A stretch of DNA of 54,918 nt from a bacterium. GTDB lineage: Bacteria > Cyanobacteriota > Sericytochromatia > S15B-MN24 > VGJW01. Position numbers and translations under genes: made by a program. Below the pieces are notes generated by a model. That model did no database searches. It was not told the DNA's origin and was given only the letters and a program-made list of their open reading frames with translations. The DNA lies in contig JAJXWQ010000014.1 of the NCBI GenBank assembly GCA_021781555.1, forward strand, positions 1 to 54,918, read 5' to 3'. Below are positions 12,753 to 17,086 of this stretch, piece by piece (positions within the stretch are counted from its first letter, which is position 1; every line of letters begins with the position of its first letter).

Positions 12753-14363
12753 TCACGCCTCGGGCAGCAGCAGCAGGTTGAGGCCCAGCCGAGGGTTGTC
12801 TCCCATGCCGTGGAGCACCGTCCCAGGCTGGACGTGGCAGGCGGCCAGGAACTTGCGAAAGTTCCCGTTGGGGGTCGTGATCAGCCCGAAGAACTCGCGC
12901 CAGAAGTGCTCGGAGACCCCCGGGGAGGCGAAGCGCCCGAACTGGCGCTCGAGGATCCGGTAGATGACGGCCAGGTCGTTCAGGCCGCCGACCAGGCCTT
13001 GCGCGTAGGTCGTGGCCTTGGAAAATAGCAGCGAGCGAAACCATCGGGTGAGGATCGGCTCGTATTCCTCGAGCAGGATCGGGCCCGAGCAGCGGCGATC
13101 CAGGCGTGAAAAGAAGGGATCGAAGAAGCCGACGAACTCATCGAAGGTTGCCGCCGGCGCAGCCGGCAGCACGGCGAGATCCTGCTGATACCAGGCCGCG
13201 TCCACGGCCGGATCCGGGTCCTCGATCCGGGCCTCCAGCCAGGAGAGCGCCACCCACAGCTTGCGGCGGAGCGGCAGATCTCCATCCAGCAGGTCAAGCA
13301 GGCGTGTCTCGATCGCTCGGAAGCTTTCCCAGCCGACTTCGAGATCCGAGAGCAACCGGAACCGGTCGGTCGTGAGGAGACTGGCGAGCGCCAGCCGGGC
13401 CCGGACGTCATCCTCCCGCTCGGCCGGGGGGCCCCCGCGGCCCAGGCGTGCGGAAGGGCACATGTGGTGCACCGTCACGCAGATCCCATCGGGGCACCAC
13501 GAGAAGATGTAGGGAAAGATCTGGCAAGGCTTGAAGATCGGCCGGCCCGCGAGCTTGTGCACCGAGCACCGGATGTCAGGGGTGAGAAACCGGCACCTGC
13601 CGGCAGCGTCCCGGGCCAGCGTGTGCTCGAAGCTGAAACGGCCCCTGGACGCTTCGGGCACCGGCTCGAGAAAGGCTCCCTCGAGCGCGGGGTCGACGGT
13701 CTGCCAGTCGAGGTCGGCGATGAAGCGAGCCGTGTTGGGCTCGATCCCGATGGTCATCGAGTGCGTGCAGCAGACGCCGCTTCCGTGGCACGAGAACCGG
13801 GTCTCTGGCAGGAAGACGAGGCGGGTTCGGGGCAGGGCGTGCCGGCGCAGGTAACTGAGATCCAGGAGGGTGCGCGCGGCTCCGAGGGGCCTGACCGCAT
13901 CCAGGCTGGCGATCTCGGCAAGGGCCGCAAGGCGCTGCCGGTCGACAGGGATGCCTTCGCCCTCGATCAGGGTGCTCCAGGAGACCCGCCAGGACTGGCC
14001 ATCGTGCCGCTCCAGTCCGAATGCAGCGCGCTGGCTCCGATCGTCGCCCCAGGTCAGTTCGGCGATCGCCATTCCGCGATCGGGCCCCTCAAGATGCCAT
14101 TCCACGACCGGAGATCGGCCGCCGGCGTCACGACGCAGGGCGAAGCTCGGCAGGTCGGTGGCCGCGGCCCAGGCCGCCAGGATCTCGGCGCGGGTCGCTT
14201 CGTCCTTGCGGACCGCCCGATCGCCCACCACCACGTAGGCCCCGGGGGCCAGGGTATCCAGGTGGGTCTCGTGGTCTCGCCAGCGGTAGCCGCTGTCAAG
14301 ATGTTCTCTCAGCAGGTTCTCTATGATGGCGAGCAGATCTGTTCTCGAGCGATCGGAGGTCAA
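12753..14363 (-). CDS. YkgJ-family cysteine-cluster (Fe-S) protein with N-terminal extension
   Basis: Protein of about 536 residues. The middle carries the YkgJ/FliB-like cysteine cluster: C192, C198 and C199 in FSCHGSGVCCTHSM, then C257, C266, C280, C290, C295 and C302 (CRFLTPDIRCSVHK, KPCQIFPYIFSWCPDG, HHMCPS). Such clusters bind iron-sulfur or zinc. The first 140 residues look like an NTF2/SnoaL-like domain with a WRVSW strand, an inference from pattern only. The C-terminal half is helical and unknown. Start is uncertain: TTG 14363 has no clear ribosome site. It lies 104 bp downstream of the thioredoxin-like selenoprotein gene, so a shared redox role is possible. Confidence 0.72.
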   Translation of the reverse strand: MTSDRSRTDLLAIIENLLREHLDSGYRWRDHETHLDTLAPGAYVVVGDRAVRKDEATRAEILAAWAAATDLPSFALRRDAGGRSPVVEWHLEGPDRGMAIAELTWGDDRSQRAAFGLERHDGQSWRVSWSTLIEGEGIPVDRQRLAALAEIASLDAVRPLGAARTLLDLSYLRRHALPRTRLVFLPETRFSCHGSGVCCTHSMTIGIEPNTARFIADLDWQTVDPALEGAFLEPVPEASRGRFSFEHTLARDAAGRCRFLTPDIRCSVHKLAGRPIFKPCQIFPYIFSWCPDGICVTVHHMCPSARLGRGGPPAEREDDVRARLALASLLTTDRFRLLSDLEVGWESFRAIETRLLDLLDGDLPLRRKLWVALSWLEARIEDPDPAVDAAWYQQDLAVLPAAPAATFDEFVGFFDPFFSRLDRRCSGPILLEEYEPILTRWFRSLLFSKATTYAQGLVGGLNDLAVIYRILERQFGRFASPGVSEHFWREFFGLITTPNGNFRKFLAACHVQPGTVLHGMGDNPRLGLNLLLLPEA

Positions 14364-14467: not shown

Positions 14468-15052
14468 CTACTGCGGTACCCGGGGAAAGAGGAAGGAAGT
14501 TCGCACCTGCCAGGCGGTCTCGGGGTAACGGCGGGTGAGATTCTCCCAGGTCATCCGCAGGCTCTTGGCGTCGCCGGCCAGGTACTGGGCCACGCCCTTC
14601 CAGTAGAGCGCCTCCGGCGCGGAGCTGGCATGCGCCCAGCGGGTCGCCACTTCATCGAAGCAGCGCTCGGCCCGCACGTGCTCGCCCCTGCCGAGGGCAT
14701 ACCGGCCTTCCCAGAGCACCAGGTGCGCCGCGAACTCCTCGGGCGGAAGAAAGCCGTAGGTGCGCGCATGCACGCGATCGTCGGCATCCAGGCAAAGGAG
14801 GGCGGGAGTCCACAGGGCGTTGTACCGGCCGGCAAGCTCAGCGTTCTCGCCGACATCCAGGCGAATCGCCACGAACCGGGTCTTCAATAGCTGGGCGACG
14901 TCGGGATCTGGGTACGTCACGGTACCCATCGCCTGGCACCCCCCTCAGGTGGGCCTGAAGAAATCGAGCAGGATCGGCTTGTTCTCTTCGCGCGAGCGGG
15001 CCCTGGCCTCATCGAGGCTTCTGGCCCAGTCGACGGGAATGCTGACGGCCAT
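14468..15052 (-). CDS. Thioredoxin-like protein with in-frame TGA: probable selenoprotein (UGGC)
   Basis: Read through one TGA, this gives 194 residues. AGGAGG lies 7 nt before ATG 15052. Residues 1-35 end in NKPILLDFFRPT. Codon 36 is TGA (14947-14945), followed in the same frame by GGC, QAMGTVTYPDPDVAQLL, the cis-Pro loop NALWTPALL and a TPR-like C-terminus (APEALYWKGVAQYLAG). In related thioredoxins the first cysteine of CGGC sits exactly where the TGA is. C39 remains as the resolving cysteine. A hairpin with SECIS spacing follows. TGA is an ordinary stop elsewhere in the window, so general recoding is excluded. A TGC-to-TGA nonsense mutation or read error is the alternative. Selenium machinery is not in the window. 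Confidence 0.8.
14905..14930 (-). promoter_or_regulatory. SECIS-like stem-loop after the TGA codon
   Basis: On the minus strand a perfect 6-bp stem GGGTAC/GTACCC (14927-14922 with 14915-14910) closes a six-base loop CGTGAC. It can extend by GAT/ATC across a 2-nt bulge. The loop begins 23 nt after the TGA and has G as its second base, within the known range for bacterial SECIS elements, which place a G-containing apical loop about 16-37 nt downstream. It overlaps coding sequence, as bacterial SECIS elements do. Confidence 0.6.
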
Positions 15053-15361
15053 GGCGAAACCTCCTGGCGGGTGCATTCCGGCTCCGAGGCGATCTGCCCT
15101 GGCTGCCGGAACGACTTCCGTCTTGCGCTCCCGCCGGCGGCGATCATCGCGAACGCGATCGGGCCGGTCAACGTTCCGTTGGCAGGCGGGATCGCCCTCG
15201 AACCGCAACAAGAGCGCTCCGGAGCCCTCGGGACGCCGCGGGAGGCCGTCTGCAGCCCGGCCATGGAAATGGCCTACAATGATCGCAAGGTGAGAGATCC
15301 GGGCGCGAAACTTTCCGCCAGACAGTGCTGTCATTGGCTCGTGCGAAAGGAGATAGCGCGG
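15053..15361. other. Divergent intergenic region, no confident gene
   Basis: About 300 bp between the thioredoxin-like gene and the LTXXQ-like gene. It is open on the plus strand from GTG 15071 and would encode ICPGCRNDFRL, a CxxC pattern, in frame with the next gene. However, a signal peptide and ribosome site at 15362 argue against using it. A TACAAT (15275-15280) could be a -10 box for the downstream sigma-factor operon; its -35 is poor. Confidence 0.4.
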
Positions 15362-15883
15362 TTGGCTCGTTCGACGGCGAGGTTGATTGTCATGTCGATG
15401 GCAGGCATCGCGTGGCTATCGCCTGGCGCAGCCTTGGCGGCTCCCGTGCAAGACGGCCAGGCATCCGGCTCCGGCCGGATGTGTGTCCGCAGCATCGTCA
15501 ACCAGGACGCAGCCGACCGCGTCTTTGCCCAGCTGCGCTTGACCTCACCGCAGCGAGAACGATGCGTGGCGATTGTCCGCAAGGGGTACATGTCGGCCCA
15601 CCAGCTTCGCGACGAAGCCCGGCGGTCCTGGCATGTCCTCATGCAGACACTTCGCGATCCCGAAGCATCGCTCGAGCAGGCGCTGGCCGAGCAGCGGCAG
15701 GTCGGGCTCTATCAGGAGAGCCTTGCGGAGAAACGCCTGGCAACGTGGTTCCAGCTCCGCAAGATCCTGACCCGGGCCCAACTGACCAGGCTATCCTCCC
15801 TTTCGATCGATCCGTCCGCTGAATTAGGGGATGCAAATGGCGAGCAGGGCGATTCCCATGCCGGGCCTGATGGCCGGCATTAG
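15362..15883 (+). CDS. Exported LTXXQ/CpxP-like protein
   Basis: 173-residue protein with a signal peptide (ARSTARLIVMSMAGIAWLSPG then ALAAPV cleavage). The mature part is helical: RLTSPQRERCVAIVRKGYM matches the LTxxQ turn of Spy/CpxP and metal-sensor proteins, followed by a long helical region (MQTLRDPEASLEQALAEQRQV). TTG 15362 is chosen because AAAGGAG lies 9 nt upstream and the signal peptide begins there. Its 3' end overlaps the ECF sigma gene by 47 bp. Envelope sensor proteins often sit with ECF sigma/anti-sigma pairs, so it may feed an envelope-stress or metal signal. Confidence 0.65.
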   Translation: MARSTARLIVMSMAGIAWLSPGAALAAPVQDGQASGSGRMCVRSIVNQDAADRVFAQLRLTSPQRERCVAIVRKGYMSAHQLRDEARRSWHVLMQTLRDPEASLEQALAEQRQVGLYQESLAEKRLATWFQLRKILTRAQLTRLSSLSIDPSAELGDANGEQGDSHAGPDGRH

Positions 15884-16451
15884 CAGGACTGCTGACACCT
15901 CTCCGGACCTGAACCTGGTTCGTCGCAGCCAGCAGGGAGACACACGCACCTTTGGCGAGCTGGTCCGGCGCCATCAAGATCGCGTCTACAATCTGGCCTT
16001 GCGGATGACAGCCGATCGCGACCTCGCGGCCGACGTCACGCAGGACGCCTTCCTGCGGGCGTTCCGATCCCTGCCCAAGCTGCGGCAACCCGAGCGCTTC
16101 GGGTCCTGGTTGCTCAAGATCGTGAGCAATCTGAGCCTCGATGCTCTGGCGGCACGGAGTACCGTCTCGCTGGACGCGCTCATGGAGGAGGGCGACGAGT
16201 TCTTGCCCGTCTCGGGGTCAGACCCCGCCGACCAGATCGAGGGCATCCTGTCCGACGAGGCCGTTGCCGCAGCGCTCAAGCGCGTGCAGCCGGTCTACCG
16301 GCAGGTGCTGGTTTTGCGCCACATCGAAGATCTTCCCTACGAGCAGATCGCCGAGATTCTTGACATCCCGCTCGGGACCGTCAAGACGCGGCTCTTCCGC
16401 GGTAGAGAGCAGTTGCGGCAATTCCTGACCGAGGGAGGAATCACGCCATGA
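15837..16451 (+). CDS. ECF-type RNA polymerase sigma factor
   Basis: 204-residue sigma-70 family protein of the ECF type. Region 2 shows FGELVRRHQDRVYNLALRM, DLAADVTQDAFLRAF and FGSWLLKIVSNL. Region 4 shows YRQVLVLRHIEDLPYEQIAEIL and the helix PLGTVKTRLFRGREQLRQFL. ATG 15837 is chosen because AGGGG lies 6 nt before it; ATG 15831 is too close. Its TGA overlaps the anti-sigma start (ATGA). Expected to redirect RNA polymerase to envelope-stress promoters, when released by the anti-sigma factor. Confidence 0.92.
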   Translation: MASRAIPMPGLMAGISRTADTSPDLNLVRRSQQGDTRTFGELVRRHQDRVYNLALRMTADRDLAADVTQDAFLRAFRSLPKLRQPERFGSWLLKIVSNLSLDALAARSTVSLDALMEEGDEFLPVSGSDPADQIEGILSDEAVAAALKRVQPVYRQVLVLRHIEDLPYEQIAEILDIPLGTVKTRLFRGREQLRQFLTEGGITP

Positions 16452-17086
16452 GGTGTGCGAACGTCAGAGAATTCCTGAGCCAGAGCCTGGACGGCCCGAT
16501 CGAGCCGCCCGACGAGGCCGCGGTCGAGACTCATATCCTGGCCTGCGAGAGCTGTCGGCTCTACCGCAAGACCTTGCGCCGGATGACCGGCGCCCTGGCG
16601 ACTCTCGAGCATGCTCCGGCGCCACTGGACTTCGGCGCGATGGTGACGTTTCAGCTGAGGCGCGAGCGCGTGCAGCGGCGCTGGGCGCCGCCAGCTGCCG
16701 TCGCGGCGGCGCTGGTGGCAGGAATGGTGCTGGCCTGGCCGACCTGGCGAGATTCGGGCCAGGGGGCGTCGGCAGGGCTGGCTTCGGCCGCTGCTGGCCT
16801 TTCAGCCGATCAGGAGACCGCAGCCTTCATGCACTGGATGGATCCGGCGGCCGACGGCGGCAGCGGTCTCGGGGTACAACAAGCAGCCTTCGACACCTAC
16901 TCGGCGGCAGGACCAGGCGGCCAGCTCTCGCAGCTGCCAGCGGGCCCGGTATCGCCGTTGCAGTTCGCTCCGATGGCGGCGATGCAACCGCAGCCGGTCA
17001 CCGTCCAGCTGGGGCCGGCAGCGTTCCCGACCTTCTTCGGCGGGCCCCTGGCACCGGTGCAGCCGCTGGCGACGCCCTTGCGCTGA
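16448..17086 (+). CDS. Zinc-finger anti-sigma factor, membrane-anchored
   Basis: 212-residue anti-sigma factor. The ZAS domain Hx3Cx2C is at H29, C33 and C36 (ETHILACESCRLY), with C3 at the start of the domain. A single membrane helix (PPAAVAAALVAGMVLAW) follows near residue 80, then an outside tail rich in Gln, Pro and Gly (QPQPVTVQLGPAAF). It would hold the ECF sigma at the membrane until a signal releases it. Overlap ATGA with the sigma gene gives coupled, roughly equal synthesis. Downstream lie two copies of the dispersed element. Confidence 0.88.
   Translation: MRCANVREFLSQSLDGPIEPPDEAAVETHILACESCRLYRKTLRRMTGALATLEHAPAPLDFGAMVTFQLRRERVQRRWAPPAAVAAALVAGMVLAWPTWRDSGQGASAGLASAAAGLSADQETAAFMHWMDPAADGGSGLGVQQAAFDTYSAAGPGGQLSQLPAGPVSPLQFAPMAAMQPQPVTVQLGPAAFPTFFGGPLAPVQPLATPLR

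Follow-up and report, generated by a model that had tools for sequence, protein, structure and literature searches.

Does the single in-frame TGA at this locus end a gene, or does it encode an amino acid within one? On the minus strand of the window (the whole stretch of DNA analysed, 54,918 nucleotides from a member of the Sericytochromatia), positions 14468..15052 hold a frame that runs from an ATG at 15052-15050 to a TAG stop at 14468-14470 and is interrupted once, by a TGA at codon 36 (14945..14947). An AGGAGG ribosome-binding site (15060..15065, minus strand) lies 7 nt 5′ of the ATG, in agreement with the original prediction, which had proposed a strong ribosome site at the upstream start and a thioredoxin-like protein whose first redox residue is encoded by the TGA. 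Read-through of this codon yields a product of 194 residues (...NKPILLDFFRPTUGGCQAMGTVTYPDPD...WTPALL...), in which the TGA, read as selenocysteine (Sec), would supply the first residue of a UGGC redox motif and codon 39 (14936..14938) the resolving cysteine of the U-x-x-C pair, with the cis-Pro loop WTPALL further downstream. A mechanical ORF caller split the frame as had been foreseen for automatic annotation, starting a 153-aa ORF at M42 and reporting a separate upstream ORF that ends in DFFRPT.

Domain analysis revealed that the read-through protein matches the Pfam families Thioredoxin_7, Thioredoxin_2 and DsbH (E about 1e-12), and that its C-terminal part gives weak TPR matches (TPR_16 and TPR_6). 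An AlphaFold2 model based on 47 sequences (mean pLDDT 96.5, pTM 0.92) is confident through the Sec site and places Sec36 just before helix 37-46 of a thioredoxin domain, which is followed by four TPR-type helices. From the Pfam matches and DSSP assignment of the model, the thioredoxin-type domain spans residues 1 to about 120 (14692..15052, minus strand), with the cis-Pro loop WTP at residues 81-83. The TPR-like C-terminal domain (14471..14704, minus strand), also anticipated by the original prediction, comprises helices 104-121, 125-138, 144-158 and 162-175 and contains a highly conserved EALYW motif. The fold, the redox motif at a helix start and the cis-Pro loop expected of a Thioredoxin_7-type member of the thioredoxin superfamily are all present in the predicted model and the Pfam matches. 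Position 36 (C/U), C39 and P83 are invariant columns of the family alignment, C39 being unchanged in 47/47 rows. The model and the homologues described below support the read-through frame as a complete coding sequence. If the TGA were instead an ordinary stop, a sequencing error or the mark of a pseudogene, the downstream frame would be a remnant or a false gene beginning at M42. In a single draft assembly, a lone TGA might be a mistake, and an ATG does exist in the downstream part; a start at M42, however, would lose the redox motif together with the first strand of this confident fold.

The homologues bear directly on this alternative. Within the window's class, the full-length protein was found in 3/18 genomes, all of one family and with one TGA each, and in the two relatives the TGA aligns to codon 36. 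A scan of named genomes added 5, belonging to Pyrinomonadaceae, Terriglobia, other Acidobacteria, Blastocatellia and Thermomicrobiales, and in each of these, too, the TGA falls at that codon. We then extended the search by profile to 396 Acidobacteriota genomes and to 400 from the phylum that includes the Thermomicrobiales member (Chloroflexota/Thermomicrobiota). Among full-length loci above the listing threshold of this profile, which was built from Sec forms, 47 from three bacterial groups carry TGA at the aligned codon (the window, 2 same-family genomes and 44 loci elsewhere) and a single one, L114, carries Cys; U was scored as C, leaving no bias against Cys, and distant Cys forms could fall below the threshold. 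A TGA that recurs at one codon in so many loci cannot be ascribed to chance, and none of the homologues stops at codon 36. Most family members come from metagenome assemblies, and the family is present in about 6% of the Acidobacteriota sample and 4% of the sample from the second phylum. In the Sec loci the redox motif is always UxxC (UGGC, URGC, UGAC, ULGC, UPAC and others). One genome, G651, carries two divergent Sec copies (L131, L139). A profile search of viral contigs detected no relative, and Burkholderia matches on replicons of 2.4-3.5 Mb (plasmid records) proved to be ordinary secreted CxxC proteins, not members of the family.

Comparison of close pairs further revealed strong purifying selection both before and after the TGA (e.g. 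dN 0.01 / dS 0.12-0.14). Together with the identical codon across three bacterial groups, this pattern leaves the reading as stop, error or pseudogene refuted in practice by the homologues, and we regard it as the least probable of the explanations considered.

In the phylogenetic tree, the window's protein and its two relatives cluster together (98/93), and five more distant CxxC paralogues (L119-L122, L137) form one group. The sole full-length Cys form, L114 (motif HCKGC), is nested in a small Sec group (95/93), on a long branch and with uncertain placement. Because it branches within the Sec group, this topology suggests a replacement of Sec by Cys. Its genome, G384, is not among the selA-positive genomes; the one relative with a Cys codon at the site therefore comes from a genome with no detectable selA.

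The same Cys raises a second alternative, in which UGA is read as Cys, Trp or Gly through reassignment or near-cognate read-through: Cys occupies the site in this member and in the related CxxC proteins. The surrounding genes of the window, however, mostly terminate in TGA and contain 0 in-frame TGA codons, so UGA serves here as a normal stop and the code has not been reassigned. The window's genome (G000) also possesses the complete selenium machinery named in the original prediction, with a tRNA-Sec (69.7 bits, TCA anticodon), selA adjoining selB on contig 64, and a selD with an in-frame TGA of its own (G000:C81:85655-86578, L064). Across genomes, the Sec form of the family co-occurs with selA: in the Acidobacteriota sample, selA was detected in 25/25 Sec-form genomes, compared with 252/396 genomes overall (hypergeometric 8e-6, kinship ignored), and in the second phylum in 15/15 against 322/400 (hypergeometric 0.036, kinship ignored), p-values that overstate the association because homologous sequences are not independent. 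Among the five named genomes, selA was found in 4/5. It was not detected in G004 (64% complete) or G063, though both carry the Sec form.

Within the window's class, the complete Sec trait (selA, selB, selD and tRNA-Sec) is present in G000, G001, G002, G003, G007 and G010, and one in-frame TGA interrupts selD in nearly all Sec-using members (G000, G001, G002, G003, G004, G007, G010), with the motif AAGUAAK in G000 and G001. This TGA indicates that selenophosphate synthetase is itself a selenoprotein in the class. G008 has all four genes and a selD without an in-frame TGA; other genomes of the class lack selA. In Acidobacteriota, we also observed DsbD-like frames of 500-650 aa that are interrupted once, by a TGA or TAG, within the matched thioredoxin domain (e.g. 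G209:C101, G213:C4, G299:C4, G359:C7), possibly TsoB-like or other selenoproteins.

A further line of evidence against decoding as another amino acid lies immediately downstream of the codon, where a SECIS-like hairpin is predicted at 14909..14928 (minus strand). Its 7-bp stem (UGGGUAC/GUACCCA) closes a CGUGAC loop that starts 23 nt past the UGA. As in bacterial SECIS elements, the predicted structure follows soon after the UGA and has a G within the first two loop positions. Predicted folds placed a hairpin at a SelB-compatible position in 46/46 sequences examined, mostly in two forms: one with the loop CGUG(A/U)C at 23 nt, found in the window, in its two relatives and in numerous further members, and one, mainly in Acidobacteriota, in which GGA or UGGAU forms the loop at 16-17 nt. 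Members L110, L111 and L097 have the divergent loops GUUU, GUCU and GAACAA, which shows that members of the family differ in loop class.

Compared with within-gene synonymous-codon shuffles, the hairpins are on average 4.9 kcal/mol more stable (n=46; Wilcoxon 2e-13, on sequences that are not independent). In the alignment of the first form, codons +7 to +10 end in T, C, G and G, respectively, in 19/19 sequences, although those genes use these bases in about 0.37-0.49 of synonymous codons. Stem pairing is satisfied in 94% of alignment cells and in at most 50% once the columns are slid by 1 to 3, and one stem pair shows a compensatory change from A-U to G-C in 3 sequences. The Cys form L114 is without the conserved hairpin codons. 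General folding z-scores over 59-nt stretches were not significant, and the case for the hairpin therefore rests on the synonymous shuffles, the wobble constraint and the covariation; an Rfam scan of the window gave no match. Given the hairpin with its wobble constraint, the full Sec machinery and the co-occurrence with selA, decoding of the UGA as Cys, Trp or Gly appears very improbable. Comparative sequence evidence instead makes it virtually certain that the gene encodes a true selenoprotein, one belonging to a thioredoxin-TPR family.

For this selenoprotein, we propose that SelB and tRNA-Sec decode the UGA at codon 36 as selenocysteine, guided by the intragenic hairpin just downstream, for which the genome comparisons above provide strong support. 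Few residues precede the first conserved Trp and no signal peptide is apparent by eye; the protein is probably a cytosolic thiol-disulfide oxidoreductase. From the UxxC motif and the cis-Pro thioredoxin fold, we infer a cycle that opens with an attack by the selenolate of Sec36 on an oxidised client, which would be a disulfide or, possibly, a sulfenate or peroxide. The mixed selenenylsulfide would then be resolved by Cys39, after which a cellular reductase would regenerate the reduced Sec-Cys pair. The TPR-like helices with their EALYW motif most likely bind a client or partner. The explanation as a whole, a Sec-decoded thioredoxin-TPR protein acting as a cytosolic oxidoreductase with a client-binding TPR-like part, is highly likely; its specific role as client-directed disulfide reduction is favoured by a narrower measure, at somewhat better than even. 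A more tentative proposal, which falls short of even probability, is that the proteins constitute a chaperedoxin-like Sec family in which the TPR domain delivers specific clients to the UxxC site and Sec is nearly obligatory.

Alternatively, the protein may be a selenol peroxidase or a selenium handler: Sec36 would either reduce peroxides or pass selenium on to SelD, and Cys39 would serve as the resolving residue. In favour of such a role, the family is confined almost entirely to Sec users and is missing from most of them, suggesting an accessory function and not a part of the core machinery. Against it, a UxxC motif with a cis-Pro loop constitutes a disulfide-exchange active site and is atypical for a peroxidase, and in the window's genome the gene lies on a different contig from selA/selB, selD and tRNA-Sec. 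We consider this role improbable, and disulfide exchange with clients remains the preferred reading.

Genomic context points to no dedicated partner. BLASTP clustering of genes around 25 loci identified no recurring neighbour other than the selenoprotein itself. The original prediction had suggested a redox pair with a downstream Fe-S YkgJ gene; with no neighbour kept across these loci, that pairing was dropped. The gene in question (12753-14363, minus strand, 536 aa) does contain a similar Cys pattern, but its CxxCxxCC/YkgJ match reaches only 14.5 bits against a Pfam cut-off of 23, and a FliB match of 21.5 bits is likewise below cut-off, so the assignment itself is weak; its product is possibly a metal- or cluster-binding enzyme. 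On the divergent upstream side lie an ECF sigma factor (15831-16451, plus strand) and an overlapping zf-HC2 anti-sigma factor (16448-17086, plus strand), which are not conserved beside the selenoprotein. Ahead of the sigma factor, an ORF at 15071-15883 (plus strand) has a signal-like segment, no Pfam match and a secreted appearance.

Because automatic annotation halts at UGA, this soil and groundwater redox protein is likely invisible or truncated in databases that rely on it, and the family profile can be used to re-annotate such genes. Most bacterial selenoproteins are outnumbered by their Cys homologues; if confirmed, the present family would be one with nearly universal selenium use, making it testable why some enzymes seldom revert to cysteine. 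The analysis also places a complete Sec trait in the window's lineage, for which our search of the literature on selenocysteine in Sericytochromatia or Melainabacteria found no published account.

Several thioredoxin-superfamily selenoproteins with Sec first in a UxxC motif are known, including Trx (PF00085), a 'thiol:disulfide interchange protein' (PF13098), SaoT (NF040730) and HUIPC (NF047660) (PMC13188914), and the window's family shares this arrangement with them. A thioredoxin-TPR family is absent from the 119 prokaryotic selenoprotein families in the 2026 table of that study, a comparison that for families given only by a broad Pfam domain covers their descriptions. Literature on TPR selenoproteins contained no description of such a family that we could find, and NCBIfam 20.0 gave no match over cut-off, the best being DsbD and TsoB, far below threshold; nor does a Pfam model describe the family. 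On this comparison, which for the PF13098 UxxC family (representative WP_011366075.1) covers the listed description, the proteins look like a new selenoprotein family inside the thioredoxin superfamily.

Among the closest solved structures, by both sequence and fold, are DsbD C-terminal domains. With these and the Thioredoxin_7, Thioredoxin_2 and DsbH families (PF13899, PF13098, PF03190), the window's family shares the fold, a redox motif where the first long helix begins, and the cis-Pro loop; it differs from the Thioredoxin_7/DsbD group in having Sec in place of the first Cys in every member except one, and in being a stand-alone protein with a TPR-like helical fusion and without a transmembrane or periplasmic part.

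By domain order, the nearest structures are of the YbbN/CnoX type, which raises the possibility of a Sec chaperedoxin whose TPR part holds unfolded or oxidised proteins, with the Sec-Cys pair acting on their thiols. CnoX has the same domain order, thioredoxin first and TPR second, YbbN-type structures (3qdn, 3qou) rank among the best fold matches in the PDB, and Caulobacter CnoX is both redox-active (CxxC) and a holdase (PMC8129009). The superposition over both domains is nevertheless poor (TM 0.38-0.41, rmsd over 11 Angstrom, 11-12% identity), the TPR part is far shorter than that of EcCnoX, which consists of two five-helix subdomains (PMC8129009), and the thioredoxin domain belongs to another subfamily, nearer to DsbD-gamma and Thioredoxin_7. 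The active sites differ as well, UxxC here against SxxC or CxxC in CnoX/YbbN. A holdase of this kind is accordingly an unlikely identity, and the client-directed oxidoreductase remains the favoured one. Finally, Trx7/PDZ (NF041199) and VPGUxxT (NF041383) have a related thioredoxin-like domain, with weak profile matches far below cut-offs; their Sec lies in CxxU or VPGUxxT and their partner domains are others, whereas the window's family combines a UxxC site with TPR-like helices.
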